Below, piece after piece: positions 12,669-37,932 of a stretch of 64,000 bases of DNA. A program made the translations under genes and the position numbers. How positions within the stretch are numbered: position 1 is the stretch's first letter; every line of letters starts with the position of its first letter. This stretch comes from Pirellulaceae bacterium (GTDB taxonomy: Bacteria; Planctomycetota; Planctomycetia; Pirellulales; Pirellulaceae), in contig JADYZV010000036.1 in assembly GCA_020852965.1 (NCBI GenBank), positions 62,001 through 126,000 on the forward strand, written 5' to 3'. The notes beneath the pieces were generated by a model. That model saw nothing but the letters and a program-made list of their open reading frames with translations, was not told the DNA's origin and searched no databases.

Positions 12669-13162
12669 GACCGCACTTCCGTGTTAACAAATGTCCACCG
12701 AGGCAGGCGATACTAATGGGTTGTCGCGTCCCACCTTCCAACCGCAACAATCCTTCTATGCGGAAGAATCGGCCTGTTCGGAGCAGCACAATCACTATTA
12801 GAAGTACTTTCGCCGCCCGCATTTACCCTCCCCCCAGAAATCGTCTTCCTAATCCGCAAAGTCATACATCGCGGAAAGTCTAGTGCTCTGTCACAGCTCA
12901 TTTTAGGGTAGTGGACGAGGTTACGAGTCCTTTCGACTTAGTAGTTACCAGGCGAATCGATCGCATTGACCTACCAGCAAATTGACCATTCACGAAACCA
13001 TCGGGGGGGTGGGGTGAAAAAATGACGCCGCCCCCCTTTTGCCCCTAGCTTGGCACTGGATTCGAACTATTTTGGAACGGCATTCAGGAATCGCCTCTAT
13101 TGCCCACAGCCGAGACCACTAGCCTACTTTCAATTGAAATAAACGACTGCAAGGCCACCGTG
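12669..13162. other. 494-bp divergent intergenic region
   Basis: It separates the divergent BBP7 and giant-protein genes, so it must hold promoters for both, but no convincing -35/-10 pair stands out. It contains family B copy 2 (12881-12930) and, near 13000-13045, a G-run followed by a C-run (GGGGGGGTGGGG ... CCGCCCCCCTTTTG) able to pair. I see no gene. Confidence 0.6.
12881..12930. repeat. family B element, copy 2 (left half)
   Basis: TAGTGCTCTGTCACAGCTCA followed by TTTTAGGGTAGTGGACGAGG and TTACGAGTCC. Head and core match copies at 10209 and 35771; the right, inverted half is missing or degenerate. Confidence 0.7.
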
Positions 13163-16100
13163 ATGAGCAAGCCAGTTTCCCTAAGTCTTCGCGCGTTACA
13201 TCGTCTATTCCTACGCCCAAACAAACGACAGCGTCTTCGCCATCTCGCGAGACTGCGGTTGATCGAGCAATTGGAGATGCGCGCCTTGCTAACGGGTGTC
13301 ACGTTGATCGACCTCAACCAAACGCCGGCGGGTTCCGATCCTTCGGCGGTGGTGGTGGTCGGTGACCAGGGGTTCTTCTCGGCGGGTGACGGAACTCATG
13401 GACGTGAACTTTGGAGGACCGATGGAACCGAAGCGGGCACAGTGCTGGTGAAAGACATTCAACCGGGTCCGTCGGGTTCTCTTAGCCAGTCCGGTTTCTC
13501 ACAAAGCGTCGATGTTAGCGGAACTTTATTTTTCGTTGCTGATGAGCTCACCCATGGTCAAGAATTGTGGAAGAGCGATGGCACTGAAGCGGGAACTGTA
13601 TTGGTAAAGGACATCTATCCTGGTCGAGAGTCATCGTCGATCCAAGCTCTCACCGCAAGTAACGGGAGACTGTACTTCTTGGCTAACGACGGAGTTCATG
13701 GAAACGAACTTTGGACGAGTGATGGAACGGAAGCAGGCACCGTGCTGGTGAAAGACATCCACCCCAGCGGCAGCCAAAAATTCGACTCGGATGGTGGCTC
13801 CATCGTCAGTTTTGGCGATGGGGTATTGTTCGGTGCCAGCGATGGTGTGCGGGGACGCGAACTATGGCGCAGCGATGGAACCGAAGAAGGAACTTCCATG
13901 GTGATCGGTTTGCTTCCGATCGAAACGGATCCGAGTCGGGTCGAAGACGGCTTTCGTGGCGACCTAGTAGCCTTCGGCTCACAGGCGTTTTTTACTGGGT
14001 ATACGAAAGCCACCGGTGGCAAAATGTATCGAACCGATGGAACCGAGGCGGGAACGCAGCGGTTCGGTGGCGAAACGCTTTTGAGGCCACGTGCCATCGT
14101 CGATCTTGCAGGGGCGCTCTACTTTTTCGGCTACGATGGACTGTATCAAAGTGATGGATCTTCGACCGATCCAGTAAGCAGAATTAGCGATCTACCAGAG
14201 TTTATCGAGAACATCACGCTTGTAGGCAATCGAGTTTTCTTCAGCGCGCACGACGATCAGTTTGGCGAACAGCTATGGACAAGTGACGGTACGGAAGCGG
14301 GCACCTTGCGCGTGACGGAGATCGATCGCGGATTGGACTTCCGAGGCGAGCCGATGGGGGCGGCCATTCTGTCCATTCACGATTTTGGCGGCGTGGCTTT
14401 CGTCGTCCTCAATGATGGTATTCACGGCGGTGAACTTTGGCGCAGCGATGGCACCCAAGCGGGCACAAGAATTGTCAAGGATATCAACCCGGGCCAACTC
14501 AGCAACGATCTTTATGACGAGGGAGCTGTCTTGGGCGGTCAATTCATCTTTCCCGCCGACAACGGAACCGGCGGCGAACTTTGGAAGACCGATGGCACCG
14601 AAGCGGGAACAACGATGATCAAGGAGATCGACACCGTATCGACGCAGCCATCCAACCCTGGCGGTGGTATCAAACTAGGCAACAGCTTGATTATCACCGC
14701 GGACGATGGAATACACGGTAGAGAGCTCATTTTGACCGACGGCACCCGAATGGGAACATCGCTGCTGAAAGATATCTATCCAGACGGCGATTCCTCTCCG
14801 GGCGGGATGGGGTTGATCGCTGATACCTTGTTCTTTTCCGCCGAAGATCCAACGCATGGGCGCGAACTTTGGAAAACCGATGGCACCCAGGCTGGGACGG
14901 TACTCGTTCGAGATATCAATCCCGGCTCAGCGAGCAGTACGCCCACTGGCTCTTTTGTCTTCGATAACAAACTATACTTTGGAGCCCGTGATGACATTCA
15001 TGGCCGAGAGCTTTGGGTCAGTGACGGTTCGGAAGCCGGCACAAAAATGATCAAGGACATTCGGCCAGGCACAGGCGACGGGCTGACTTCGATCGAATTT
15101 GCGGTATTCAAAGGAGAACTCTATTTCCAAGGCAACGACGGAAACAATGGACGCGAACTATGGAAGACCGATGGAACTACTGCGGGAACCGTGTTGGTCA
15201 AAAACTTTGGCAGTGGCAGCTCCGATCCTAGCGGGTTCACCGTCTTCGGCGATAGTCTGTATCTGACCGCCGACGGGCCGCAGGGAGACGAACTGTATAA
15301 GTCCGATGGGACATCGGCTGGGACCGTGCTGGTGAAAGACATCAACCCTGGTTCCCGAGGAAGTTTTCTAGGAACTTTCGCTCCGGTAATCGTGGGAGGC
15401 CAAATGTTCTTCATGGCAAACGATGGAATTCACGGCTATGAACTTTGGAAATCCGACGGCACCGAAGCAGGAACGACATTGGTAAAGGATATCGAACCGG
15501 GTGAAGGCAATTCGTTCCCAGGGGTCGGTATCGAAATTGGCGGTGTGCTGATTTTTCTCGCCGGACAAACCGGCACCGGGTTGGAACTTTGGAAAACGGA
15601 TGGCACCCCCGAAGGGACGAAGATACTGAAAGACATCTACCCCGGAAATCAAAGTTCGCTTCGCTCCCTCTACGGTTTTAATTCAAACAGTGTATTTGAG
15701 GGCGAGCTGTACTTTGATGCCCACGATGGCGTGCATGGGCGCGAACTTTGGAAAACCGATGGCACCGAGGCCGGTACGGTACTCGTCGTAGATATTGTTC
15801 CTGGCCCCGAAGGCTCCACTCCAACTGGCTTTGCACAAATCGGTGGAAAACTCCTGTTCTCGGCAGGAAGTTACAGCAAGTACTCGTTTGATAACAAGGT
15901 CGAACTATTTCGCCTCGGTGTTGATCCAGCGATGGTCACCGCGTCCATGACCGATACGCTCTCCATCGACGTCAACAACGATGGCAAAGCCAATCCCGGT
16001 GATACGCTGAAATACACGACCACACTGAGTGTGGGAAGTGAGGCCGATGCCGATGGCGTGCTTTATACCCAGACCATTGACGCCAACACCACAATCGTGC

Positions 16101-19100
16101 CTGGTTCCGTCTCGACCAGCCAAGGGACGGTTTTTACCGGCAGCAACGGCGGAAATTCTTTGAACATCGGACTGGGAACCATTCCCGCAGGCAGCGTTGT
16201 CAGCATTGCCTACTCGGTGCGCGTCAGAGATCCATTGTCAGCTAATGTCACACAAATCTCGAATCAAGGAACATTCAGCGGCGATAACTTTAGCAACTTG
16301 CTCACCGACGATCCTTCACAAGCTGGTGCGAGCGATCCGACGACTACCCCGATCGACACCGGCACCGCAGCCGGCATCGCACCTGTCGCTACCGATTTCC
16401 CACTCCCCGCTATTCCCCTCGGCTCAGTGCTCCACATCGACGCGACCGACATGATTGCGGAATTCGGCACCGATGCCGACAGTCTGTTGAACGCGATGTC
16501 CGTCAGCTTTGGAAGCGCGACCATCAATGGAACGCCAGTGGCTTCGCTGGCTGAGCTCGGCTTCAGCTACACTCCAGGCGCAGGTCCGGCCGGTGCCTTC
16601 ACCATCGATGCGAATGCCTCCGCCTATGCGGGTCTCGCTGCGGGCTTCGCGCACGATGTCATTATCAACTTTACGGTCAGCGATGGGGCGTTGCAGGATA
16701 GCGGCGTATTGACTTTCAAGGTCGCTAACGCTGCAGCCAAGTTCAAGGATGTCGCTTTTCATTTCCTGGGTGCAACCAGCCCAGAGAGCCAGGTCAAGGC
16801 GATTGCCGACGCGGCTGCAGGCGAATCAATCTTTTTTGTCGTAGCCAGCGGAACGAACGATGTCTCCGATGCACTCGATCACGCGAACTTCTTCGTCGGT
16901 GGATTCGATACCTCGAAAGTGGCCGGAACGATGCTCACCGTGGCGCAAGCGGCCGCTACCAATGCATCCCTGGCATCCGCCGCAGCAGCGAATGAGTCGA
17001 TCGCCGTAGCAATTGCCGACGACCAATCGGATTCCACTGCGGTTGCGGACAACCATTCGGTCGCCTCGGCCGAAAGCCAAAGCGGGAGCGGGGCTACCTC
17101 AGCAGCCGACGACAACTCGGCCGCGAGCTCCCGTGCGGTGAACAATTCCGATGCACTCGCTTTGGCGGAGGAAGGTTCCGCAGCAGAAGCCTCCGCAGAA
17201 AACGAATCGAGTGCCACCGCTACTGCCAAGGCGATATCTAATGCGACTTCCACGTCTTCCCAGAATTCGGTGAGTGTGTCCTCCGCAGAGACCACCTCGT
17301 CCGCGACAGCATTTGCGTCCCATGATTCGGTTAGCACTGCCGATGCACTCGTTGGTAGCATCTCGAACGCGGTAGGGAAGAATTTTTCTGCAACAGCATC
17401 GTCAGCCGCTAATGGATCGGATGTACTGGCTTTCGCCGATGTAAGCTCTACTGCGACTTCGAACGCCGACCAACAGAGTTCGGCGAGTTCCTCTGCGGAA
17501 GAATCCTCGAATGCTTCGTCGTTCGCACTCAACCAGGCAACGGCGACGGCAAATGCGTCCGAAGGAACCTCCAGCAATGCGAAAGGACGCAGCGATTCCA
17601 GTATGGTGGCAACGACCATCGTTGCCGAATTCTCAAATCAACCCAACAGAGGAAACGCAGAAGCAGAAGCCACGCAGCCAGTGCTCCGTATCAGCACGCC
17701 GATCGCCCCAATCATGGGGCCCAAAAATACAGCACTACCACTGTCTGTTGACGTGGCCGAGCTCGACGGTGAAACGGTCGCTTCGATCCTTATCTCGAAC
17801 TTACCCGCCGGTTCGGTCCTTTCAGCCGGAACTTCCAACGCAGATGGATCCGAGTGGACCTTTACGGACAAGCCTCCAGTGAGTTTGACGTTGAAGCCCC
17901 CAGCGGGATTCGTCGGTAACATCGAAGTAAGTATCACGGCGATGAACGCACGTGGTACCAGCGCTCACGCGACACTGGCTGTGAAAGTGGAAGGTGTGGC
18001 CGACGGAGTGTTGATTCGCAAGACGGTTAATTTGACCGAAGACAAGCAGATCGTCTCGCGCGAGGCAAACCTAAACATTCCGGGCATGCCTGCGGGCGTG
18101 CTCCATGGAGTTGATCTCAACGACCCTGCCGCCGTCCGCGCTGCACTTGTGGCCGCAGGCGCGAACTCCGAGTCGATCCGTATCGTTGTCGCGCGTCGAG
18201 ACGACGGACAGGCGATCACGACACTGTCAAAGAACACTGTCACAGAATCACCCGACGCTCTGTGGACGGGTGACATAGATGACCCTGACAACATCGCAGT
18301 CATCACGGGCACGGTGACGGTCACGACCACGATCACTACCACCACTACGAAAATGTTCACCGACGTGCTGACGATCACAGGTGAGTTGGTGATGCAGCAA
18401 CCCACCGCAGATTTGTCGCTGGTCGTCACAGTCGACAATGGCTCTGCCGAAGTGGGACAAAACGTGACCTTTACTATCGTCCTGAATAACGCGGGCCCCG
18501 ATGCGGCTACCGGGGTTACCGTGCTGGACAAACTGCCGGTCGGTTTGCAGTTCGTCCAAGCCAACACGGCCTCAGGCAGTTACAGCTCCGAGTCGGGCGT
18601 GTGGACGGTCGGCGGTCTACCTGTTGGTGGCACTTCGTCGTTGACCATCGTCGCCAAGCTACTGACCGATCAAACGATCAACAACCTGGCGGAGATCGCC
18701 TCCTCGGATCAATTCGATCCCGACTCGACACCCAACAATGGTGTGGTCGGTGAAGACGATCAGTTCTCAGCAAGTGTCGGGACTTGTTTGACAGGCGGAC
18801 CGCTGGTCGCCGGAATGAATCGGCTGGTCTTCTCCTGCGTTACGCCAGGTGGTTTTGCCGCCTTCGTAGTCGGCACGCAGCCAGGGAGCTACACCTTCAG
18901 CAAGTGGGGGACCACGGTCGACATGGCCGATCCCAGTGTGCCTGCTATCGGCGCGGCGGGTATCAATGGTGTCGCGGTAGTACTCATCAACTTGACCCCC
19001 GCACAGCTCGCACAGCCGCTCTATGTACAAGCCTTCGAGATGTTGCCCGCGCACACGGTTAGCAACTTGATGGTCGCGCAGAATACGCCACAACACTCAG

Positions 19101-19948
19101 GCATTCCTCTCTCAGCCGATACCATGGGCCTGGGGAATTCAGACGATTCGCTCCCTGCCCTGCAAGCCGCCGCCCCCGCATTGAAGGCTGCTGCCATCGC
19201 GCGTTGGCAAGCTGCCGGGGTCTCCCAGTTGCTGGCCGATCACTTGGCGACGATCGACGTTCTGTTTAGCGACTTGCCCAACGATCAGCTCGCCGCCACT
19301 CAAGGCAACTTCATTGTGCTCGATACCAACGCAGCCGGACATGGTTGGTTCGTCGACGGCACTCCGCACGACAACGTTGAATTCACGCGTGACTCGAATG
19401 GTGCTTTGCTGGCGAACACCTCCAGCGCACGTGGACACATCGATGCGTTGACGGCAATCATGCACGAACTGGGACACGTGCTGGGTGAGGCCGACCTGCC
19501 GAGTGGCTCTGCCAATCCCATGATGTCAAGCACCCTTTCAACTGGGCTGCGGCGATTGCCAACTGTCGTCGCGACACCCAGCATAAATGCCCTCGACGTC
19601 AACCGCGATGGACTGGTAACGCCCATGGACGCGCTCCTGATCGTCAATGAGCTGAACCTTGCCCAGGGACGATTGGGCCGAACTACAGTTAATGGCAATG
19701 TGCTGGACGTCACCGGAGATGACCTGCTAACGCCTATCGATGTATTGCAGGTCGTCAACCACTTGAACCGCGCGAGTTCTTCCCGTCGTAGCGTAATCGC
19801 CCCTGTTGGGAGTGGCGAAGGAGAATACGCCGTAGCGAGTGCGGAGATCGAACAGATGGAAAGCCAGTGGATTGACGACACGCTGCTCGAATCGCTCGCC
19901 TCTGATGCCCTCAACGCATGGTGGAATGCCAATCGAAAGTATAGTTGA
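13163..19948 (+). CDS. giant secreted ELWxxDGT-repeat / metzincin-like / dockerin protein
   Basis: The ATG at 13163 begins MSKPVSLSLRALHRLFLRPN, with the planctomycete LEPR-XLL-like export signal IEQLEMRALLTG about 35 residues in. The 2261-residue product shows, in order: ~17 ELWxxDGTxxGT repeats (~75-900), a DUF11-type domain (~925-1065), an Ig/cadherin-like domain (~1075-1195), 22 ten-residue repeats (1256-1475), an Ig-like domain (~1510-1610), a module shared with the next gene including DUF11 (~1745-1870), a metzincin-like segment with HELGH at 2101-2105 and Asp2111 (HExxHxxGxxD), and a dockerin-like pair of EF-type loops (DVNRDGLVTPMDALLIVNEL and DVTGDDLLTPIDVLQVVNHL). It is surface or matrix located. 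Adhesion or matrix structure is inferred; whether the protease is active is unknown. Confidence 0.88.
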   Translation: MSKPVSLSLRALHRLFLRPNKRQRLRHLARLRLIEQLEMRALLTGVTLIDLNQTPAGSDPSAVVVVGDQGFFSAGDGTHGRELWRTDGTEAGTVLVKDIQPGPSGSLSQSGFSQSVDVSGTLFFVADELTHGQELWKSDGTEAGTVLVKDIYPGRESSSIQALTASNGRLYFLANDGVHGNELWTSDGTEAGTVLVKDIHPSGSQKFDSDGGSIVSFGDGVLFGASDGVRGRELWRSDGTEEGTSMVIGLLPIETDPSRVEDGFRGDLVAFGSQAFFTGYTKATGGKMYRTDGTEAGTQRFGGETLLRPRAIVDLAGALYFFGYDGLYQSDGSSTDPVSRISDLPEFIENITLVGNRVFFSAHDDQFGEQLWTSDGTEAGTLRVTEIDRGLDFRGEPMGAAILSIHDFGGVAFVVLNDGIHGGELWRSDGTQAGTRIVKDINPGQLSNDLYDEGAVLGGQFIFPADNGTGGELWKTDGTEAGTTMIKEIDTVSTQPSNPGGGIKLGNSLIITADDGIHGRELILTDGTRMGTSLLKDIYPDGDSSPGGMGLIADTLFFSAEDPTHGRELWKTDGTQAGTVLVRDINPGSASSTPTGSFVFDNKLYFGARDDIHGRELWVSDGSEAGTKMIKDIRPGTGDGLTSIEFAVFKGELYFQGNDGNNGRELWKTDGTTAGTVLVKNFGSGSSDPSGFTVFGDSLYLTADGPQGDELYKSDGTSAGTVLVKDINPGSRGSFLGTFAPVIVGGQMFFMANDGIHGYELWKSDGTEAGTTLVKDIEPGEGNSFPGVGIEIGGVLIFLAGQTGTGLELWKTDGTPEGTKILKDIYPGNQSSLRSLYGFNSNSVFEGELYFDAHDGVHGRELWKTDGTEAGTVLVVDIVPGPEGSTPTGFAQIGGKLLFSAGSYSKYSFDNKVELFRLGVDPAMVTASMTDTLSIDVNNDGKANPGDTLKYTTTLSVGSEADADGVLYTQTIDANTTIVPGSVSTSQGTVFTGSNGGNSLNIGLGTIPAGSVVSIAYSVRVRDPLSANVTQISNQGTFSGDNFSNLLTDDPSQAGASDPTTTPIDTGTAAGIAPVATDFPLPAIPLGSVLHIDATDMIAEFGTDADSLLNAMSVSFGSATINGTPVASLAELGFSYTPGAGPAGAFTIDANASAYAGLAAGFAHDVIINFTVSDGALQDSGVLTFKVANAAAKFKDVAFHFLGATSPESQVKAIADAAAGESIFFVVASGTNDVSDALDHANFFVGGFDTSKVAGTMLTVAQAAATNASLASAAAANESIAVAIADDQSDSTAVADNHSVASAESQSGSGATSAADDNSAASSRAVNNSDALALAEEGSAAEASAENESSATATAKAISNATSTSSQNSVSVSSAETTSSATAFASHDSVSTADALVGSISNAVGKNFSATASSAANGSDVLAFADVSSTATSNADQQSSASSSAEESSNASSFALNQATATANASEGTSSNAKGRSDSSMVATTIVAEFSNQPNRGNAEAEATQPVLRISTPIAPIMGPKNTALPLSVDVAELDGETVASILISNLPAGSVLSAGTSNADGSEWTFTDKPPVSLTLKPPAGFVGNIEVSITAMNARGTSAHATLAVKVEGVADGVLIRKTVNLTEDKQIVSREANLNIPGMPAGVLHGVDLNDPAAVRAALVAAGANSESIRIVVARRDDGQAITTLSKNTVTESPDALWTGDIDDPDNIAVITGTVTVTTTITTTTTKMFTDVLTITGELVMQQPTADLSLVVTVDNGSAEVGQNVTFTIVLNNAGPDAATGVTVLDKLPVGLQFVQANTASGSYSSESGVWTVGGLPVGGTSSLTIVAKLLTDQTINNLAEIASSDQFDPDSTPNNGVVGEDDQFSASVGTCLTGGPLVAGMNRLVFSCVTPGGFAAFVVGTQPGSYTFSKWGTTVDMADPSVPAIGAAGINGVAVVLINLTPAQLAQPLYVQAFEMLPAHTVSNLMVAQNTPQHSGIPLSADTMGLGNSDDSLPALQAAAPALKAAAIARWQAAGVSQLLADHLATIDVLFSDLPNDQLAATQGNFIVLDTNAAGHGWFVDGTPHDNVEFTRDSNGALLANTSSARGHIDALTAIMHELGHVLGEADLPSGSANPMMSSTLSTGLRRLPTVVATPSINALDVNRDGLVTPMDALLIVNELNLAQGRLGRTTVNGNVLDVTGDDLLTPIDVLQVVNHLNRASSSRRSVIAPVGSGEGEYAVASAEIEQMESQWIDDTLLESLASDALNAWWNANRKYS
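13380..15820 (+). repeat. ~17 ELWxxDGT protein repeats
   Basis: Units of roughly 45-50 residues, each with a core like GRELWKTDGTEAGTVLVKDI. Two units near 14030 and 14150 are degenerate (KMYRTDGTEAGT and YQSDGSSTDP). The spacing fits beta-propeller blades as in other ELWxxDGT proteins, which would make two or more propellers. Confidence 0.85.
16928..17587 (+). repeat. 22 perfect-register decapeptide repeats (Ser/Ala alternating)
   Basis: Exactly 660 bp divide into 22 units of 30 bp with no insertion or deletion. In each unit position 4 is Ser (19 of 22), Thr (2) or Ala (1), and positions 6-10 alternate with Ala or Ser. Examples: ANESIAVAIA, DNHSVASAES, ENESSATATA, SHDSVSTADA, ANGSDVLAFA. 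The DNA of the units is divergent, so the register is held at protein level. The alternation of small and variable residues suggests a beta-solenoid-type stack. Confidence 0.85.
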
Positions 19949-20288
19949 CTTGAACGCCGAAACCACCGCGCTGTTATCGCATTTGTGGGCTGCGAGCGAG
20001 CAACGCGCTATTTCGGCAGACCGTCGAAGTCGACGGAGGAGTGTTGGACCAGTGCGACGCACCCCTCTGCAGACTTGCCTATAGCAGAAAAAACTTGATT
20101 GCGGACGAGATACTGCTACGCTGTGAGACATATCCACTCACGATGCGTTCCGCCTATGGTCGCGTTCTAGCGGTCAAGGATCGACTTCTTCTAAGCGGCC
20201 ATGAGTTTTGACCGCATCTTAGTTTTTGCATGCCGTCGCCTGGAGCAGCGCTCGATCGCTCGACCATTTAATCCATAGGGGTTTCGAG
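19949..20288. other. 340-bp gap between the two giant genes
   Basis: No gene is visible. It holds an 8-bp inverted pair GCGGTCAA/TTGACCGC (20170-20177, 20208-20215) and a purine-rich GGGG just before the next ATG at 20289 that could serve as the ribosome binding site. No strong terminator for the upstream gene is seen, so read-through is possible. Confidence 0.5.
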
Positions 20289-23200
20289 ATGGAAATTGTT
20301 AGACAACCAGGGAAAGCAACGAGGCGGACCAAGTATCTCTCATCAGCAAGGAAACGCGCTCGCCTTGCATCACTCGCGTTTGAGACACTGGAACAACGCC
20401 TCTTGTTGGCGGTGGATCTCGCCAGCGTTGATATGACGGGCTTGGTGGCGGGTGACGATCTTCCCGTACCGAGCGTGCTCGATCCCTCGGAGGCAGGAAC
20501 GCATCCGGACCTCAGCGCAAACGGCAAGTACCTGGTTTTCGAAAGCGACGCGGAAGATCTGCGCGACAACGACGGCAACGCTCTACGTGATATCTTTGTC
20601 CGAGACCTCGCTAGCGGCGTGACGACTTTAATCAGTGTCACACCGGACGGCGTTAGCGCCGACGCCGACTCGTACAGCGCTGACATCAGCGATGACGGTC
20701 GCTTCATTACCTTTGTCAGTTCGGCGACGAATCTGATTCGTGGGGAGGTGGTCGATAACGGTTTCCCTGATGTCTATTTGCGCGATCGCGATGTGGATGG
20801 TAATGGAGTCTTCGATGAGCCAGGCGAGCTGGCTTCCAGAACTTTCCTGCTCGGTCGCGGGTTCGCTGAGGATGGCACGCCGGAATTCGGAAACTTCCAG
20901 TCGGGTGGCGATTTCCCCGTGGACTCCGCACTTCGACCGGTGATTAGCGGAGATGGGTCTACCGTGGTCTTCGGAAGTAAGGCAAGCAATCTGATCGATC
21001 CGACAAGCGGTGCCGATGTGAATGTAGGCGGCGAAGATATCTTCGCGGTGATCACTACCAACGTCACCAAACGCGAAGTAGTAACGCTGAATCTGGAGGG
21101 TAGGGACACTGGAGTTGGCTTCTACGGTGAAGGCGAAGCGGAAATGTTCGCGGTTAGCCGAGATGGTAGTGTGATTGTCTTTCAAAGTCGTTTCAGTGAC
21201 ATTGCCGATACCGAGGATGAGCCGCTTAGTCGACAGATATTTGTCCGCAGCAGCAAGACCGAGCGTATTAGCGAAAACACTGTCGGGATAGGGGGCGTTC
21301 TGGATTCGCGGGAATCGGTGATTAGTCGCGACGGACGGCACGTGGCATTTGTCAGTCCTTCCGCAAACCTGGTGGAAGGAGACGAGAATAGCGCCAACGA
21401 CGTCTTTGTGTTTGATCGCGAAACTGAGTTGCTCACCTTGGTCAGCCGCAGCGCCGATCCGTTGTCCACGAGTGTGAGCGGGAATGCCGCGTCAGCCTCC
21501 AGTGGTAGTCCGACCATTCGGCAATATTCTCTATCGATCAGCGACGATGGTCGCTTCGTCTCCTACTCCTCTCTGGCCACCGACTTGGTGGCGGCAGTAG
21601 AGGGGACCACAACCAGCGATGTTCCGGGCACGCCAGACATTTTCGTCTTTGACCGGGATGCCGATGAAGACGGTGTGTTCGACGAGGTCGACGTGCCCGG
21701 TGCAACCGAGACGATCCTGGCCAGTATCAATTTCGACGGCACCGCAGCGGGTGATTCGGGGGCCTCTGCGGCAGGTTCAGGATCGCAACGAAACGCGATC
21801 AGCGGAAACGGTCGGTTCGTTGCCTTTGCGAGTACCGCCATCGATCTCGTTGGAGAACCGACCTCAGGTACCAACGTCTTTGTTCGCGACCTGCTAACCA
21901 AAACCACTTACCTGGCCAGTCCCAGTCCGGACGCTGGCCCTTTCTCGGGAGGGGAACTGGGTGCGTTAGGCCAGCAAACAATCTCCATCTCCCGAGATGG
22001 CAGCCGCGTCGCCTTCACCAGCGATTCGAATCTAGATCCCGACACGATCGACGACAACGGAGCTCGCGATGTCTACGTCTATACTCTGCCGTCGTTCATC
22101 GAGATGCAACAGTTTTCGACCAATAGTTTGACGAGTTTGAGTGTGCGTTACGAAATCCTTAACGCTGCCGTGGAAGATGGATTTTCGATCGACATTGTCC
22201 GCTCATTGGACGAAACGTTTGCGCCGGCCAGTGCCGACATTCTGTTGGCAACGCTTGCGATCAACGAGCCAGAGGACTTGACAGTCGGGATTCACACCCT
22301 GACGTTTCCAATCGGAGGGGGCGCTGGTGAGGTTCCACTGCCAGGTGCCGGTGCGGAAGAGCCGGGCGACGAAAAACCGGTCGACTATTTCCTATTGGCG
22401 GTAGCCAATCTGGTCGATTCGGACGAGCAGTCGGCGCTGATAGAAGACACCGCTGTCTTCTTCGGTGCCTATCATCCAGCAGCTGGCCCCATCTTCGCGC
22501 ATGGTACCGCTGGTGACGATACGATCACGGCGAGCACCGTCGACGGAATCGTGACATTCACATTTTCACCCGGCGGCGGCCCAGTCGATGTCCCTCTGTT
22601 CCCTCCGGAAGATGTTACCGGTATCCGTGTTCGCATGCACGCCGGAGACGACATGGTGACGGGCAGCGGATTTGGCGACTTGATTCTCGGCGGCCCCGGA
22701 TCGGACACACTCTTTGGTGAAGCTGGCCGCGATACGATGGACGGTGGCCCCGGCAACGATCGAGTTTTTGGAGGCGACAATTTTGATCGACTGTTCGATT
22801 CGGATGGGGACGATCTGGTGGACACAGGTGGGCCAGAACCGTTCGGCGGAACGGTCAATGGCATTCCCGGCAGCGACAATATCTATGTCGGTGCCGGTCA
22901 AGACACGCTGAGCTTTGACGATGCAGTGCTAGCGATCACGATGGACGCGAGCAATCCGAATATGCAAACGGTCGATGCCGACGGCAACAGAGTCCAGGCG
23001 ACGGGCTTCAGTTACTTCATCGGTACTCCATTCAACGACCAGTTTTCCATCGGCGGCGATGTGCCTTTGCTGTTTACCTTCGATGGCGGGCTCGGGTCCG
23101 ACACACTGACGGTCGATGCCAAGGGGTTACCGACGATCAACGACGGCAAACGCGTGCAAGTGATGGGTTTCGAACCAATTGAATACACCAACTTTGACCG

Positions 23201-26200
23201 AATCAACATCGTCAACGCTCTGCCCTGGGTCAAAGCCGGCTTGGAAGATCATTTGGTGATCGACAAAAACGGCAACGGCAAAGCCGATCCCGGTGATACC
23301 CTCGAGTATGTGGTCACGATCACAAACGATGGAGTGGTCGACGCCCGCGACCTGCTGTTTGAAGACACTCTGGATCTCGATATGGAACTGGTAACGGGAC
23401 TCCTCAAGATCTCGCCCATCGCCTTGGATGATATTTACGTCGTTCGTGGCCCGCTCAATGTGAACTCTTCCAGCGGACTGCTGACTAACGATTTTGATAT
23501 CGACGGCTCTGTACCGGGCACCAACGCCGACCTAGTGCTAGACGTCGGCAGCGTCACGCGAATCAGCGATCCGACGACCAGTACCTTCACCGCACAGCCT
23601 GACGGGAGCTTTACCTACACTCCTGAGCCAGGTTTTTCAGGCATGGAGACATTTACGTACTCCATCACGGACACCGACGGAATGAGCAATGTCGGGGCCG
23701 TCAACTTGATCGTTAACGACGTGGTTTGGTTCGTTGATAACAGCCTGCCCACCAACGGAGACGGATCGCTTAACAATCCATTCAACTCGTTGGCCCCAGT
23801 CAACGGAAGCGATGGACAGGACGACATGGATGGCCCCGGTGATACGATCTTTGTGTTTGGTGGTGCCGGCGTTTACAACCAAGGATTCGAACTCGAAGAC
23901 AATCAGTCGCTGATCGGTGAAGGGCACGGGCTGTTTCTCGGAGGCCGCGATTTAGTGATGCCTGGCCCGCGCCCAACGCTAACGAACACAACCGGCGATG
24001 GCATCAAGCTGGCCAGCAACAACACGGTCCGAGGACTGAATATCGATGGTGCCGCTGGAGCGAACATCCACGCGGATGGTGCTCAGCGAGGACAGATTCA
24101 AGACGTCAACCTCAGCGGTGGTTCGATTGGCATCGACCTTCACAACACGGGTGGCGCGTTTACCTTCACCAACGTTAGCATTTCCGATCCGACCGGTGCA
24201 GTATTCAACGTCGAGGGTGGCACGAGCAAGGTCGCTTTTGGTGCCGATAGTACGATCCGTCAAAGTACTTCGACTGGTAGCGGCTTGCACTTCACCAATG
24301 CCAATGGTACTTACAGTTTCAACGGTAGCGTCACGCTGGACGGTGGTAACGCGGGTATCAATATCATGGGCGGGGATGTTAGCTTGCTGCTGCCGAAACT
24401 CTCGATCACCCATACCGGAACCAATCCGGTCGTCGACATCCGCAACCACAGTCGCGGCACCGTCAACCTTCGCGGACTTCCTGTTGGTGGCGTTCTCACG
24501 CTGGTGGACGGCCAACGGATGCGATTCGACAATGCGGACGGAACGTACGATTTCAACGGGCAAGTCACACTCAATGGTGACAACGCGGGAATTGATATCT
24601 TGGGAGGTTCCAGCGGCACGTTTACTTTCCCCGATACAGACATCACACACTCCGGCAGTGGTTCAGCAGTGAACATCAACGATCACTATGGAGGAACCGT
24701 CACATTCGGATCAGGCTCCACCTTTGACGCGACTGGCGGTACCGGCTTGCAGTTTTCTAATGCCGACGGAGTTTACGATTTCAATGGCGAAGTGACGCTC
24801 AATGGTGGCGATGCAGGCATCGACATTATTGGTGGCTCCGGCACGTTTACTTTCACCGACACGACCATCACGGATCCTGTGGGCGCGGCCGTCAACGTCC
24901 AAGACCATTCTGGCGGGACAGTTACCCTGGGGCCTGGCTCGAGCGTCGACGCGACCGGAGGTACCGGTTTGCAGTTTGACAATGCCGACGGAATCTACCA
25001 TTTCAATGGCGAAGTGACGCTCAATGGCGGCGACGCAGGCATCGATATTTTGGGTGGCAGTTCCGGTACGTTCACCTTCAGCGACACGACCATCACCGAT
25101 CCGTCAGGAGCCGGACTGAACGTCGAAAACAGCCGACCTAATATCACCTTCGACGGGATTACCGTGCGAGGCGGGACCAATGGCATCCGTTTCGAAGGCG
25201 TTACCGGTGACTTCACGGTCATAGGCAATACGGTCATCGACAATACCACCGGAGCCAGTATTACTGTTGGCAACAGTCGCGGCAAATTCCGTTTCGGTGA
25301 CACGGACATCGGCCAGACAACGCCCGTCGACACGGGCATCGACATTATCAATTCATCGGGAACCTTCTTGTTTGACGATTTAGATGTCCAAACCTCCGGG
25401 ACGGGCGAACTGGCGGCGCGCGTGCTGAAAGGGCAAGGACTCGGGACGCCGCAATGGTTTTTTTATGGTAGCTTGACAGACGTTGATTTTGAGATAACCG
25501 TTGCGGACAACGATCCTCTATTCGGGCCCTCAGGCGGCATACGCGCCAGCGGTGGATTTGTCGATGGAAGTCCCAATGATGCCATTAGCATCTCCAACGG
25601 CAGCCTGTTTGTTGACGGTCTGACTTTTGGAGCCAACCAACCAATTGGCGGTGACGCGATTCGCGTCACCAACGCGGGCGGAAATAATCACAGCGTCGAA
25701 GTCACCAACTCGACCATCAACGCTCCCAGCGGACGCGGCATTGTCATCGACAACGGTGTGCCGATTGCCCCATCGTTCGATTTCGGTTTCGGCGGTCTAA
25801 CACCCGTTGCGGGCAACTTCGATGGCCAACCCGGCAGCGGGATTGGACAATATGATTCGGCGTCCGGCAGTTGGTTCCTGCGCAACGCGCCGAATACCGG
25901 TGTGCCCGACGTAGGCTCATTCCTGTTTGGTCCAGGTGGCATTCCAATTGTGGGTGACTGGGATGGTGATGGGATCGACACCATCGGAGTCTACGACCCC
26001 AACACACAAATGTTCAATTTGCGGAATACCAACTCAGCGGGCCTGCCGGACATTTCTCCATTCGCCTTTGGATCGCCTGGTGACTTGCCCGTCGCCGGAG
26101 ACTGGGACGGAGACGGTATCGATAGCATGGGTGTGTTCAGGCCGAGCGATGGAAGCTGGTATCTTCTTAACTCCTCTGGACCTGGGCAAGCGGACCAGAT

Positions 26201-29200
26201 CATTCAATTCGGTATTGCTGGTGACATTCCAGTTCCTGGTGACTTCGATGGTGATGGCGCGACCGATCTGGGAATTTTCAGACCCTCCAACCGGACATGG
26301 TACTTGCAACCGTCAAACGCGGGCTTTAGTAGCATACTACAGTTCGGCGATCCGAATGATATTCCCATTTCCGGGGATTGGAATGGTGACGGAGTCGACA
26401 CAGTAGCTGTCGTTAACCCAAGTATCGCTGGCGGAACGACCAGCCAGTGGACGTTGCGTGGCAACAACTCGCTCGTCGGTCCTATGAAGGTAGACATCTC
26501 GAGCAACCAGATCGATTCGAACCAAGCCGGCATTGACGTTTTGGGAAATGGCGCCGGCAGTACCATTGCCACGATCGCGAACAACACGGTCCGTTCCAAC
26601 TTCAATTCAATTTTTGTACACACCGTGGGAACTGGCAGCGCGATTCTGGAGTTGGATCTGCGCGACAACCGCGCGGGTGTTTATGTCATCTCGAACGAAA
26701 ATGTTGGAAATGCCATCAAGCTTGTCGGCGATCTGCATAGCGGACAACAGCTCATCGATGATGATGGCGGCAATGTGGCAGCGCGGAACAACCGATTGAG
26801 CAACGGGGTGACTCTGCCGATCACCAACGTGAACGGATTATTCGTTAACGGGCCGATCGATATCATTGCTGGTTTGACTCAACTGCCCCGCGGAGGCTCT
26901 GGTGAGGGTGCGGCAGATGACAGTCAGGGAAATGATTTGGTCGGCGGCGAGCAGCCGGAAGGCGGTCGCCTTTCAGTCGACCTCGGTACGCTGCCGGCCG
27001 GCAAATCGGTGCAAGTCGTTTTCCGGGCAACCATCAACGACCCGCTTGATGCAGGAGTCACCCAAGTCGCTAATCAAGGTGCGATCAGCGGTAGCAACGT
27101 GGACATGTTCTTGACCGATGATCCGAACACGGAAGCGCCGGGGGATGCAACCATTACGCTCATCGATGGCTCACCGATTCAGTCCTTCGACTTTGGTGAC
27201 GCGCCCGATGGGATCATGTTGGCAGGTGTGTTGCAAAGTTATCCGACACGGTTGGCCAATGATGGCGCGCGGCATATGGTCGTAGCGGGTGGACCGCTGC
27301 TTGGTAGCCTAGCGCCAGATTCCGAAATCGATGGGCAACCCAATGCCACCGCCACCGGCGATGATATGTCCGGTAGCGACGATGAAGATGCCAACGGAAC
27401 CACCCCCATCGTACTCATCGCTGGACAATCCGTCAGCGGTGTTTCGTTCACCCACAACGGCGGCACGACGGGTGCGCTGCTGAGTGCCTGGATCGACTTT
27501 AACAAAGACGGTGACTGGGACGATGCCGGTGAACAGATACTCATGGACTTTGTCGTCCCACCCGGAGCCTCGTCGACATCCTTGACGGAACTAGTCGTTC
27601 CCGCCACCGCCGCGCACGGTCAAACTTTTGTCCGCGTCCGGATTAGTACACAAGCCGAATTGGCCCCGCGCGGGCTGGCGCGCGACGGAGAAGTCGAAGA
27701 TTTCGCGGTGAGCATTCAAAGCGAAGGTGGCGGCGTACTCAACCAGCAAACGATTCTTCTCAACAACTCAGAAGAAATCGTTTCGCAGCAAGCGGATTTG
27801 AACATTCCCGGCGTCGCACCCAGCATTCTCGATGGTGTCGATCTGACCGATCAAAATGCGATTCGGTTCGCACTGATCGCCGCAGGAGTCGATCCTGCAA
27901 GCATCGCGATCAACATCAACAGGCGAGATGATGGCCAGACAGTCATGACGGATACCGTTGTAGACATTAGCGAAGAGCCGGGCACGGTCTGGATTGGCGA
28001 TGTCGACGACCCTAACACTATCACTGTCATTTCCGGCCAGCTCAATATCATCACGACCATCACGACCACGACCACGCGGCGATTTACCGACGTGCTGACG
28101 ATCACGGGTGAGCTGGTGATGCGGCGGCCGACTGCCGACTTGTCGCTGGTCGTCACGGTCGACAATGGCTCCGCCGCTGTTGGACAAAACGTGATCTTTA
28201 CTATCGCCCTCAACAACGCCGGCCCCGATGCCGCCACGGGAGTTACGGTCTTAGATAAACTTCCTGCTGGATTGCAATTCGTCAATGCGACGACTGCCTC
28301 AGGCAACTACAACTCTGAGTCGGGTATGTGGACGGTCGGAGGTCTGCCAGTTGGCGGTACTTCGAGGCTAACGATCACGGCCAAACTGCTGACCGATCAA
28401 GCGGTCAGCAATGTGGCGGAAGTGGCCAGTTCCGATCAATTCGATCCCGACTCGACGCCGGGCAACGGCGCGCTCGCTGAAGACGATCAGTTCTCTGCCG
28501 GTGTAGGCACGTGCTTGACCGGAGGTCCGCTGGTCGCAGGGATGAATCGGCTGGTCTTCTCCTGCGTCACGCCGGGTGGTTTTGCCGCCTTCGTGGTTGG
28601 CTCGCAGTTGGGGAGTCACTATTACAGCAAGTGGGGGACCACGGTCGACATGGCCGATCCCGGCGTGCCCGCTATCGGTATAGGAAATTCCAGTGGCTCC
28701 GCCGTGGTGCTCGTCAACTTGACCGAAGCTCAGCTCGCTCAGCCACTGTACATCCAAGCCTTCGAGATGTTGCCCGCACACAAAGTCAGCAACCTACTGG
28801 TCGCGCAGAATATGCCTGACCACTCGGGCATTCCTCTCTTGGCCGAGAGCATTGGGCTTGGGACATCGCCAGATACCCTCCCTGCCCTACAGGCGGCCAC
28901 CCCCGAATTGAAGGCTGCTGCCATCGCACGCTGGCAAGCTGCTGGGGTCTCCCAATTGCTGGCCGATCACCTGGCAACGATCGACATTCTGTTTAGCGAC
29001 TTGCCAAACGATCAGCTCGCCGCCACTCAAGGCAATTTCATTGTGCTCGATACTAACGCAGCCGGACACGGTTGGTTTGTCGACGGCACGCCAAATGACA
29101 ATAGTGAATTCACGCTTGACGCCAGTGGCGCTTTGCTGGCGAACACATCGAACGCTCGCGGACACATCGATGCGTTGACGGTAATCATGCACGAACTGGG

Positions 29201-29672
29201 ACACGTGCTGGGTGAGGCCGACCAGCCGAATGGCTCTGCCAATCCTGTGATGTCAGGCAGCCTCTCTCCGGGGCTGCGGCGATTGCCTACTACCATAGCA
29301 ATACCCAGCATCGATGCCCTCGACGTCAATCGCGATGGGCTGGTAACGCCCATCGACGCGTTGCTGATCATCAATGAACTGAACATTGCCCAGGGCCGAT
29401 TGGGCCGAACTACGGTTAATGGCCATGTGCTGGACGTCACCGGAGATGGCCTGCTAACACCTATCGATGTATTGCAAGTCGTCAACTACTTGAATCGCGT
29501 GGGTTTGCTAAATCGTGGCGCAACCACACTCACGGGAAGCGGCGAAGGGGAAGATGCCGGAGCGAGCGCCGAGTTCGAGCGCGTTGACAGCCTATTGATT
29601 GACGACGCGCTGCTCGAATCGCTCGCCGCCGATGCCCTCAACGCCTGGTGGAATGCCAATCGAAAAAGATAG
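20289..29672 (+). CDS. giant secreted multi-domain protein: PD40, RTX, DUF11, beta-helix, FG-GAP, GEVED, metzincin-like, dockerin
   Basis: The ATG at 20289 begins MEIVRQPGKATRRTKYLSSA and a LEPR-XLL-like signal (LEQRLLLAVDLA) follows. The 3127-residue product shows: PD40/TolB-like repeats (ISDDGRFITFVSS, SGNGRFVAFAS; ~60-600), RTX-type calcium nonapeptides (GGPGSDTLFGEAGRDTMDGG; ~790-860), DUF11, a cadherin-like tandem domain (~1050-1145), a right-handed beta-helix (~1150-2150) with four ~74-residue repeats and an inserted block of five FG-GAP-like repeats, a DUF11-like segment, a GEVED domain (~2300-2475), and the C-terminal module shared with the previous gene: DUF11, HELGH at 2968-2972 and a dockerin pair. 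It is secreted and probably calcium-dependent. An adhesin or matrix role is inferred. Confidence 0.88.
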   Translation: MEIVRQPGKATRRTKYLSSARKRARLASLAFETLEQRLLLAVDLASVDMTGLVAGDDLPVPSVLDPSEAGTHPDLSANGKYLVFESDAEDLRDNDGNALRDIFVRDLASGVTTLISVTPDGVSADADSYSADISDDGRFITFVSSATNLIRGEVVDNGFPDVYLRDRDVDGNGVFDEPGELASRTFLLGRGFAEDGTPEFGNFQSGGDFPVDSALRPVISGDGSTVVFGSKASNLIDPTSGADVNVGGEDIFAVITTNVTKREVVTLNLEGRDTGVGFYGEGEAEMFAVSRDGSVIVFQSRFSDIADTEDEPLSRQIFVRSSKTERISENTVGIGGVLDSRESVISRDGRHVAFVSPSANLVEGDENSANDVFVFDRETELLTLVSRSADPLSTSVSGNAASASSGSPTIRQYSLSISDDGRFVSYSSLATDLVAAVEGTTTSDVPGTPDIFVFDRDADEDGVFDEVDVPGATETILASINFDGTAAGDSGASAAGSGSQRNAISGNGRFVAFASTAIDLVGEPTSGTNVFVRDLLTKTTYLASPSPDAGPFSGGELGALGQQTISISRDGSRVAFTSDSNLDPDTIDDNGARDVYVYTLPSFIEMQQFSTNSLTSLSVRYEILNAAVEDGFSIDIVRSLDETFAPASADILLATLAINEPEDLTVGIHTLTFPIGGGAGEVPLPGAGAEEPGDEKPVDYFLLAVANLVDSDEQSALIEDTAVFFGAYHPAAGPIFAHGTAGDDTITASTVDGIVTFTFSPGGGPVDVPLFPPEDVTGIRVRMHAGDDMVTGSGFGDLILGGPGSDTLFGEAGRDTMDGGPGNDRVFGGDNFDRLFDSDGDDLVDTGGPEPFGGTVNGIPGSDNIYVGAGQDTLSFDDAVLAITMDASNPNMQTVDADGNRVQATGFSYFIGTPFNDQFSIGGDVPLLFTFDGGLGSDTLTVDAKGLPTINDGKRVQVMGFEPIEYTNFDRINIVNALPWVKAGLEDHLVIDKNGNGKADPGDTLEYVVTITNDGVVDARDLLFEDTLDLDMELVTGLLKISPIALDDIYVVRGPLNVNSSSGLLTNDFDIDGSVPGTNADLVLDVGSVTRISDPTTSTFTAQPDGSFTYTPEPGFSGMETFTYSITDTDGMSNVGAVNLIVNDVVWFVDNSLPTNGDGSLNNPFNSLAPVNGSDGQDDMDGPGDTIFVFGGAGVYNQGFELEDNQSLIGEGHGLFLGGRDLVMPGPRPTLTNTTGDGIKLASNNTVRGLNIDGAAGANIHADGAQRGQIQDVNLSGGSIGIDLHNTGGAFTFTNVSISDPTGAVFNVEGGTSKVAFGADSTIRQSTSTGSGLHFTNANGTYSFNGSVTLDGGNAGINIMGGDVSLLLPKLSITHTGTNPVVDIRNHSRGTVNLRGLPVGGVLTLVDGQRMRFDNADGTYDFNGQVTLNGDNAGIDILGGSSGTFTFPDTDITHSGSGSAVNINDHYGGTVTFGSGSTFDATGGTGLQFSNADGVYDFNGEVTLNGGDAGIDIIGGSGTFTFTDTTITDPVGAAVNVQDHSGGTVTLGPGSSVDATGGTGLQFDNADGIYHFNGEVTLNGGDAGIDILGGSSGTFTFSDTTITDPSGAGLNVENSRPNITFDGITVRGGTNGIRFEGVTGDFTVIGNTVIDNTTGASITVGNSRGKFRFGDTDIGQTTPVDTGIDIINSSGTFLFDDLDVQTSGTGELAARVLKGQGLGTPQWFFYGSLTDVDFEITVADNDPLFGPSGGIRASGGFVDGSPNDAISISNGSLFVDGLTFGANQPIGGDAIRVTNAGGNNHSVEVTNSTINAPSGRGIVIDNGVPIAPSFDFGFGGLTPVAGNFDGQPGSGIGQYDSASGSWFLRNAPNTGVPDVGSFLFGPGGIPIVGDWDGDGIDTIGVYDPNTQMFNLRNTNSAGLPDISPFAFGSPGDLPVAGDWDGDGIDSMGVFRPSDGSWYLLNSSGPGQADQIIQFGIAGDIPVPGDFDGDGATDLGIFRPSNRTWYLQPSNAGFSSILQFGDPNDIPISGDWNGDGVDTVAVVNPSIAGGTTSQWTLRGNNSLVGPMKVDISSNQIDSNQAGIDVLGNGAGSTIATIANNTVRSNFNSIFVHTVGTGSAILELDLRDNRAGVYVISNENVGNAIKLVGDLHSGQQLIDDDGGNVAARNNRLSNGVTLPITNVNGLFVNGPIDIIAGLTQLPRGGSGEGAADDSQGNDLVGGEQPEGGRLSVDLGTLPAGKSVQVVFRATINDPLDAGVTQVANQGAISGSNVDMFLTDDPNTEAPGDATITLIDGSPIQSFDFGDAPDGIMLAGVLQSYPTRLANDGARHMVVAGGPLLGSLAPDSEIDGQPNATATGDDMSGSDDEDANGTTPIVLIAGQSVSGVSFTHNGGTTGALLSAWIDFNKDGDWDDAGEQILMDFVVPPGASSTSLTELVVPATAAHGQTFVRVRISTQAELAPRGLARDGEVEDFAVSIQSEGGGVLNQQTILLNNSEEIVSQQADLNIPGVAPSILDGVDLTDQNAIRFALIAAGVDPASIAININRRDDGQTVMTDTVVDISEEPGTVWIGDVDDPNTITVISGQLNIITTITTTTTRRFTDVLTITGELVMRRPTADLSLVVTVDNGSAAVGQNVIFTIALNNAGPDAATGVTVLDKLPAGLQFVNATTASGNYNSESGMWTVGGLPVGGTSRLTITAKLLTDQAVSNVAEVASSDQFDPDSTPGNGALAEDDQFSAGVGTCLTGGPLVAGMNRLVFSCVTPGGFAAFVVGSQLGSHYYSKWGTTVDMADPGVPAIGIGNSSGSAVVLVNLTEAQLAQPLYIQAFEMLPAHKVSNLLVAQNMPDHSGIPLLAESIGLGTSPDTLPALQAATPELKAAAIARWQAAGVSQLLADHLATIDILFSDLPNDQLAATQGNFIVLDTNAAGHGWFVDGTPNDNSEFTLDASGALLANTSNARGHIDALTVIMHELGHVLGEADQPNGSANPVMSGSLSPGLRRLPTTIAIPSIDALDVNRDGLVTPIDALLIINELNIAQGRLGRTTVNGHVLDVTGDGLLTPIDVLQVVNYLNRVGLLNRGATTLTGSGEGEDAGASAEFERVDSLLIDDALLESLAADALNAWWNANRKR
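24280..25090 (+). repeat. four ~74-residue beta-helix repeats
   Basis: Units begin near 24282, 24516, 24741 and 24963 and share GxxFxNADGxYxFNGEVTLN and GDAGIDILGGSSGTFTF. The last two differ by 222 bp spacing and are the most alike in DNA, which points to recent internal duplication. Confidence 0.75.
25767..26480 (+). repeat. five FG-GAP/VCBS-like repeats inserted in the beta-helix
   Basis: Units of ~46 residues with cores such as PVAGDWDGDGIDSMGVFRPS and PVPGDFDGDGATDLGIFRPS, each with a DxDGDG calcium-binding-type loop. The flanking text on both sides is beta-helix (NSTINAPSGRGIVIDNG before, NQIDSNQAGIDVLGNG after). Confidence 0.8.
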
Positions 29673-37147: not shown

Positions 37148-37932
37148 CAGACACTCGACCTATGTATTTGAGCGCTCTTCGTGAATGGCACATCGGTAGC
37201 GGCCAACTATCCGGGAGACGCCCAAGCCCTGATCAGTTCAGCCAACTCTTATCCATCCAGCTGAGCCCCGGCTAGAAAATTCCCACTAGACTCGGTTTGT
37301 CCGTCCGCTGTGGAAAATTGGCGATCGGCTCCCGTCCGACGCAGCACAAATCGCGAGGCTCCTCCTGCGGCCAATCGACTCAGGAATGCCATCCACGATG
37401 GAAGCCCAACTTTCTGTCTCACCCTGCCAAATGGCGGTCTTTTTAGCGCGAGCCATCGAGTGCAAGGGGCTGCCTGTGGCATACTAGAATTTCGTTTGGC
37501 TCACCATTTGCTGAAAGTGCAGTGACTACCCTTTTACGGTCAGGAATTGGGGCCGGTTTCCTTTCTCACCTCCCGACCTCGCCTTACGAAACGCAGGGAG
37601 AAATGTAGTTAGTAGAAGAGGAAAGACAGACACGCAACTTCCTGCAGACCACGCAATTTTTTGCAGGTCCTGCACATCGCCACTGCGGCATACGGAACGG
37701 AATTCCGTCAAGTTGGGATTCTATCCGTCGAGTCGCCGGTGGAATCAGCTGTTTTTTCAAGCAACGTACCATTCCTGTCCAATGGACTCGGCTTCAGCCC
37801 GACCACTAAGAACTAAGAACTAAGAACTAAGAACTAAGAACTAAGAACTAAGAACTAAGAACTAAGAACTAAGAACTAAGAACTAAGAACTAAGAACTAC
37901 GCACCAAGCACCAAGCACCAAGCACCAAAACT
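37148..37932. other. 785-bp intergenic region upstream of the RND operon
   Basis: No frame has a recognisable product. The region ends in the 7-bp tandem arrays described separately, directly before the adaptor ATG. Short pyrimidine and T runs occur at 37655-37760 but no clear promoter can be assigned. Confidence 0.5.
37805..37929. repeat. heptanucleotide microsatellite: 13x ACTAAGA plus 4x CACCAAG
   Basis: Thirteen perfect ACTAAGA copies occupy 37805-37895 (91 bp), with a partial fourteenth. Three perfect CACCAAG copies (37902-37922) and one variant (CACCAAA, 37923-37929) follow. The array ends 3 bp before the ATG of the RND adaptor at 37933 and occupies the place of the ribosome binding site; no Shine-Dalgarno motif is present there. 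It is not inside a coding frame. Confidence 0.95.

Follow-up and report, generated by a model that had tools for sequence, protein, structure and literature searches.

What is a run of 22 decapeptides doing in the middle of a giant bacterial protein? The question is raised by a window of 64,000 nucleotides from a Pirellulaceae bacterium (contig JADYZV010000036.1, positions 62,001 to 126,000 of the forward strand; the window is the whole stretch of DNA that was analysed, and all coordinates are given within it). There, an open reading frame (ORF) at 13100-19948 (+), 2282 amino acids long as shown by ORF and translation analysis, encloses in frame an array of units x-x-x-S-x-A-x-A-x-A at 16928-17587. 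An earlier note, made from the sequence alone, had singled out this array and supposed it to be a beta-solenoid. The answer favoured here, with fair though far from complete confidence, is that the array forms a beta-solenoid of two flat sheets with Ala and Ser as its silk-like core, built in a curli-like manner and serving as a stiff extracellular spacer.

The register of the array is exact. Its 220 stop-free residues divide into 22 units of ten with zero indels, as the earlier note had counted them, and among periods from 2 to 30 the period of ten has the top information z-score (13.6 against 1,000 shuffles). Position 4 is occupied by S in 19 units, T in two, and A in one; S/T thus stands at the best phase in 21 of the 22 units, while the maximum in 20,000 composition-preserving shuffles was 17. 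Position 6 bears A (15), S (5), T (1), or V (1), position 8 bears A (14) or S (8), and position 10 bears A (18), S (2), or G (2). A small correction applies to the alternation of Ala and Ser described by the note for positions 6 to 10: strictly small residues stand at the even positions, position 4 included, and positions 5, 7, and 9 are variable. Small residues fill 87 of the 88 even positions (4, 6, 8, and 10), against a maximum of 71 in the same shuffles. By eye, the least typical units are the first, TMLTVAQAAA, and the last, SEGTSSNAKG.

The DNA of the units was rightly called divergent: its mean pairwise identity is 41% (maximum 63%), and adjacent units are no closer (40%). The Ser codons at position 4 come from both families, 16 being TCN and three AGY. 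With such divergence and with both codon families in use, recent DNA duplication is excluded as the origin of the pattern. Since the shuffles remain far from 87/88 and the unit DNA is only 41% identical, the array is real and its decapeptide register is maintained at the protein level, as had been claimed.

No named family has been found for this repeat, in line with the note. The window array has no match in Pfam (E <= 10, YadA, hexapeptide, and pentapeptide repeat families included), NCBIfam, PHROGs, or PDB sequences, nor did the family profile A5 match any PDB sequence. Literature titles and abstract openings, with subscription papers outside the scope, contain no description of the decapeptide.

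Relatives exist, and they are few. With the window array alone as a query, 2 of 147 related genomes matched (its own and G092). A profile of window and G092 rows (A1) matched 5 of 396 genomes of the same order (own, G092, G294, G343, and G417). A further profile, A2, was made of rows from the window, G092, G417, and G294, whose genomes match it by construction; it matched 5 of 241 genomes of the same family (own, G294, G343, G417, and G866) and 2 of 392 of the phylum (own and G518). The G518 match was dropped as a low-complexity frame of the TRAGAKARTG type. Two same-family, dockerin-bearing giants carry long arrays, G294 with 22 consecutive units in a 1140-aa frame and G866 with 81 consecutive indel-free units in a 1700-aa frame. 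The G417 (389-aa frame) and G092 (482 aa) proteins are short, begin, by eye, like a signal peptide, and have in common a Gly-rich region ahead of the array (this region and the first units are 49% identical); G343 offers an array fragment. A search of a named-genome collection (84,980 species) with the flanking domain yielded one further array, L050, in a metagenome-assembled genome (MAG) of the alphaproteobacterial Kiloniellales; its 47 units form one run of 18 and another of 29, and among 289 genomes searched in its class, only that of L050 itself matched. Its array gene neighbours glmS and glmU, the locus has 68% GC, and the GC content of third codon positions is 0.86 in the array gene vs. 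0.97 in glmS and glmU; from these neighbours and values, L050 looks like a real proteobacterial locus. On the note's question whether other planctomycetes have the same period, a few relatives do, and so does this MAG of another phylum; the planctomycete label of the relatives is based on the note and on sub-threshold PF07595 matches in two of them.

No viral, phage, or plasmid relative was confirmed in the viral contig collection, and tblastn with a G092 piece or G417 against phages and plasmids found nothing, BLAST masking low complexity. A codon-pattern scan gave at least 120 stretches, from which six frames passed E 0.01 on rescoring with A5; all six were rejected by eye as low-complexity sequence. 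Absences across genomes are soft because the searches scored limited candidates per genome and the scan of named genomes used two peptide patterns.

The rules of composition become clearer when the arrays are pooled. The set consists of 208 units (2,080 residues) from six proteins, leaving out, from G866, two tail units and the irregular ones at its start; from G092, the second register half; from L050, a unit of 7 residues; and the whole G343 fragment. The 832 presumed inward positions (4, 6, 8, and 10) hold A 499, S 279, T 24, G 22, and V 8; charged residues, N, and Q are all missing there, and proline is absent from all 2,080 residues. Positions 5, 7, and 9 and the arc positions 1-3 vary widely, and the outward residues lack conservation. 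Units of the four giant-protein arrays differ about as much within a giant as between giants (means of 2.98-3.54 of 10 identical), whereas units of the short proteins resemble one another more (4.34 and 5.59 of 10 within).

Can such a sequence be unfolded? Ser/Ala-rich linkers are common in surface proteins, and the array might be a disordered or glycosylated linker of this kind, its period being kept by slow duplication without a fold. The low-complexity composition (51% A+S in the window array) fits this, as does AlphaFold2 (AF2) run on the single sequence of residues 1237-1516 (array and flanks), which gave a predicted local distance difference test (pLDDT) of 41.8 and a low-confidence helix with no strands. 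At the same time, usual linkers do not lack proline altogether, 81 units without an indel in G866 are hard to expect from a linker, and window units are no closer to one another (3.09 of 10 identical) than to L050 units (3.24 of 10), yet keep all but one of their even positions small. The linker explanation is thus regarded as quite improbable. The helix of the single-sequence model was discarded as uninformative at this pLDDT, and an alpha-helical reading was rejected since strict i, i+2, i+4, i+6 alternation misfits a helix.

A different picture was obtained when AF2 was given an alignment of 100 residues, built from seven in-register blocks of the window and L050 arrays. The model has nine strands at ten-residue spacing and no helix, with a pLDDT of 90.9 (77.8-90.9 in five models) and a predicted template-modelling score of 0.81. 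Of the structure predictions for the array region, a check that the note had proposed, the one from the alignment gives a strand per decapeptide, and the one from the lone sequence is not usable. Together with relatives in the same register and inward positions that are small, uncharged, and proline-free, this model argues for the beta-solenoid suggested earlier, as a prediction and with a known bias of AF2 to be kept in mind (see below). In a Foldseek search with the model, the neighbours among the best 50 of 210 PDB rows are by name mostly beta-solenoids, including hexapeptide acyltransferases, ice-binding proteins, bactofilin, CsgA, and FapC; the top TM-score (TMq) in these rows is 0.36, for the CsgA fibril 8enq.

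Starting from the register, the composition, the relatives, and the strand pattern of the AF2 model, which are the parts that have been shown, the following arrangement may be proposed. Each decapeptide would form a 7-residue beta-strand, S-x-A-x-A-x-A, followed by a 3-residue arc, often D/N-N/D-G. Two decapeptides would make one 20-residue coil, and the coils would stack into two flat parallel sheets packed against each other via Ala and Ser, with the variable, mostly polar or acidic residues of positions 5, 7, 9, and 1-3 turned toward solvent. With the usual rise of 4.8 A, the window array would be a thin rod of about 11 coils and about 5 nm. The two strands per coil and the parallel sheets are inferred features of this arrangement.

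Several points weigh against the solenoid and its details. Foldseek found no PDB or viral match at E <= 0.001, and its probabilities are at most 0.07 in the best 50 of 210 PDB rows. The top row in the viral library is an unrelated herpesvirus protein (TMq 0.42, E 0.13), and since it outscores CsgA, TM-scores discriminate little here. AF2 has been reported to give confident but unrealistic beta-solenoids for perfect repeats, though, in the same source, four divergent natural families including Curlin (PF07012) agreed across methods (PMC11795689). For the decapeptide, the worry is lessened but not removed, because the units are divergent, the core is uncharged, and the lone sequence gave no solenoid. 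Handedness and the number of strands per coil are assigned by analogy. G092 alone displays a superperiod of 20 residues (turn-class z 4.30); none is found in the window (identity z -2.15) or in the pooled arrays (combined p 0.52). Superperiods of 20, 30, or 40 as a test of strands per coil are uninformative outside G092. The G866 array (L044 1965-7064, -) contains segmental duplications at offsets of 17, 30, and 13 units. Since two of these numbers are odd, both sides of a two-strand coil would have to be interchangeable. Segmental duplication is also a way in which such arrays lengthen. Finally, none of 14 other genomes of the same genus, some of them incomplete, shows the array with profile A2, and the array seems dispensable.

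The missing superperiod in most arrays and the odd-unit duplications in G866 would be at home in an antiparallel cross-beta meander of the kind known from lacewing egg-stalk silk. In such a structure, decapeptide strands would be folded back by 3-residue NG-type turns into one flat sheet, the Ala/Ser face of which would pair with a second sheet or another molecule; the alternation is identical, the odd turn length puts all Ala on one face, and position 3 is indeed G in 70 of 210 units. However, an isolated sheet in a single chain would leave its Ala face exposed, and the Foldseek neighbours of the AF2 model are mostly parallel beta-solenoids by name, with the same scope as above. The meander is therefore considered unlikely, and the parallel solenoid remains the preferred arrangement.

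Among the known systems close to the solenoid proposed here are curli CsgA and Curlin (PF07012), above all the centrosymmetric class: the decapeptide would share with them a 7-residue strand, four inward positions, and a short G-containing arc, and by analogy it may also have two half-repeats per coil. In the curlin half-repeat as published, N-x-Psi-x-Psi-x-Q is followed by the arc X-G-X-X, its four specified residues point inward, and motif a of E. coli CsgA has Ser in place of Asn (PMC10192328). The decapeptide, S-x-A-x-A-x-A and three further residues, follows this layout. In contrast to Curlin, with its period of about 11 and 22-23, the decapeptide has a period of 10 and 20 with 3-residue arcs, lacks Asn/Gln ladders, has Ala at the Gln position, and, in the window, sits inside a giant multidomain protein. 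The Curlin profile (20.7-bit cut-off) matched neither the arrays nor any of six host genomes (L050 being outside this set), with a positive E. coli control. CsgG-like partial matches occur in two of the six genomes, the window genome not being among them. Thus, the decapeptide array would act in the manner of a curli beta-arch without belonging to Curlin, because it has no profile match, no Asn/Gln, a different period, and no Curlin in the six host genomes.

The core finds a parallel in designed (GAGAGAGX)n polypeptides, for which simulation and fibre dimensions gave short Ala strands with an Ala-only core and two flat sheets (PMC5388506). The decapeptide would share this Ala-core flat two-sheet layout, and the designed rolls suggest that an Ala-only core suffices; they differ in having an 8-residue unit, while the natural unit has ten residues with variable outward ones. 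Bacterial ice nucleation protein repeats have been modelled with AlphaFold as a long tandem solenoid with inward Ser ladders (PMC9418140). The array would resemble them as a tandem-repeat solenoid with inward Ser and lacks their 16-residue coil and conserved TxT/Tyr ladders.

Antifreeze proteins deserve separate attention, since the note had suggested an ice- or mineral-contacting face. Inchworm iwAFP is reportedly a flat silk-like beta-helix, Rhagium RiAFP is said to have a flat silk-like beta-helix structure as well, and the array would be like both as a flat silk-like solenoid. Of the 624 outward residues in the arrays, 140 are Thr, more than any other; 4 of the 22 window units contain Thr-x-Thr, where column shuffles lead one to expect 1.41 (p 0.01, with no correction for the six arrays); and the window array is acidic, with 23 acidic to 4 basic residues. 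Nevertheless, Thr-x-Thr never falls on two successive alternate units, that is, on successive units of one presumed face, in any of the six arrays (longest run 1 at most), the other five arrays are not enriched (p 0.37 to 1.0), and outward residues are unconserved. Flat insect antifreeze proteins bear TxTxTxT strands (PMC8038014), whereas Thr-x-Thr of the decapeptide arrays is unstacked. The ice-contacting face is accordingly unsupported, and ice or mineral binding as a whole is judged very improbable. Acidity is common to the other giant arrays (acidic to basic 108:12 in G866, 66:11 in L050, 27:11 in G294) but not to the short proteins (14:17 in G417, 6:15 in G092), and in the window array it would allow cation binding without demonstrating it.

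The role of the presumed rod has to be sought in the layout of its host gene (all on the + strand):

13163..19948, +, gene for the giant secreted-type protein; probable start ATG 13163, the ORF opening at TTG 13100 and having 2282 aa
13406..15928 (bounds approximate), +, 16 ELWxxDGT repeats (TIGR04534); profile E 2.9e-263, 16 stretches
16379..16921, +, cadherin/VCBS-like 'FGTDAD' domain and linker before the array; so placed in each of the four array-bearing giants found
16928..17587, +, array of 22 decapeptides, residues 1277-1496
16958..17257, +, the ten units of the AF2 model; one strand per decapeptide from the first to the ninth, mean pLDDT as above, last unit 61
17681..17995, +, Ig-like domain ('SNLPAGSVLSAGTSN') after the array, also post-array in G294, G866, and L050; resemblance by eye
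18410..18739, +, DUF11 domain, the better of two matching stretches; profile match
19463..19486, +, HELGHVLG zinc-metalloprotease-like motif, before the dockerin
19595..19768, +, dockerin type I domain, residues 2166-2223; profile E 3.8e-09

ATG 13163 may be the start of the gene in place of TTG 13100. Its LEMRALLTG-type N-terminus at 13274 looks, by eye, like the extracellular signal of planctomycetes; PF07595, which was scored in relatives, gave matches below the family cut-off in G294 and G866. The HELGHVLG motif is like those of zinc metalloproteases, and no family model matched there in Pfam and NCBIfam profile scans. For the FGTDAD domain, no Pfam model rose above noise.

In the window, G294, G866, and L050 proteins alike, the FGTD domain stands ahead of the array. 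A dockerin lies near the C-terminus of the first three; L050 has Big_9/cadherin-like domains instead. The FGTD domain is found in 12 of 241 genomes of the family and also occurs without a detected array; for five (L193-L197) of the nine FGTD genomes outside the known array carriers, no array match is among the matches listed, and the stretches may miss parts of genes. The L051 protein (Asticcacaulis) has cadherin-like domains and no array. In this layout, the rod would be a rigid spacer outside the cell, between an N-terminal head (ELWxxDGT and cadherin-like) and the Ig, DUF11, metalloprotease-like, and dockerin domains, and the number of units, 22 to 81 in the giants found, would set its length. 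Judged by position, composition, and predicted fold, a spacer is the most likely role.

The short secreted-looking decapeptide proteins belong to the loci L046, L049, and L048, the last of which holds a fragment; the first two score weakly with DUF6764. The short proteins could be putative stand-alone rods or fibre subunits. Partial matches to DUF6764 (PF20550) are weak, 25.7 bits in G417, 20 in G092, and 19.5 in G866, all below the 27-bit cut-off; 3 of 16 sixty-residue A5 blocks match at E <= 1 (best 0.0037), while the window array has no match at E <= 10. PF20550 found no match in the window genome, but control genomes gave none either. A link between the short decapeptide proteins and this unstudied family is possible. 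One may go further and see in the decapeptide a new family of Ala/Ser-core solenoids, used as an interchangeable rod in giants of two phyla, with the short secreted G092 and G417 proteins as curli-like subunits of matrix fibres in bacteria whose genomes gave no Curlin match; this broader view is speculative and rather unlikely.

If the solenoid is real, nature would have its own equivalent of the designed silk-like beta-rolls, with hardly anything except Ala and Ser in the core, and S-x-A-x-A-x-A plus three residues would be a simple sequence rule for stiff protein rods of any length. The array would also offer a case for checking an AF2 beta-solenoid predicted from divergent natural repeats, and it puts a label on a module that had lacked annotation, within giant surface proteins of bacteria, about which little is known in such proteomes.

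Some minor observations concern the surroundings of the array. Opposite to it lies an antisense ORF of 246 aa (16879-17619, -), and similar antisense frames lie opposite the relatives' arrays; this ORF is probably a by-product of the codon pattern. Directly downstream of the array gene, a second giant gene (20226-29672, +, 3148 aa) encodes a protein whose last 655 residues share 75% identity with the C-terminal end of the array protein; the decapeptide profile found no array there, and a HELGHVLG motif is present at 29190-29213. Farther on, perfect 7-bp tandem repeats (ACTAAGA x13.6 and GCACCAA x4) occupy 37805-37928 just before the ORF 37933-39129, where they might possibly act as an expression switch.
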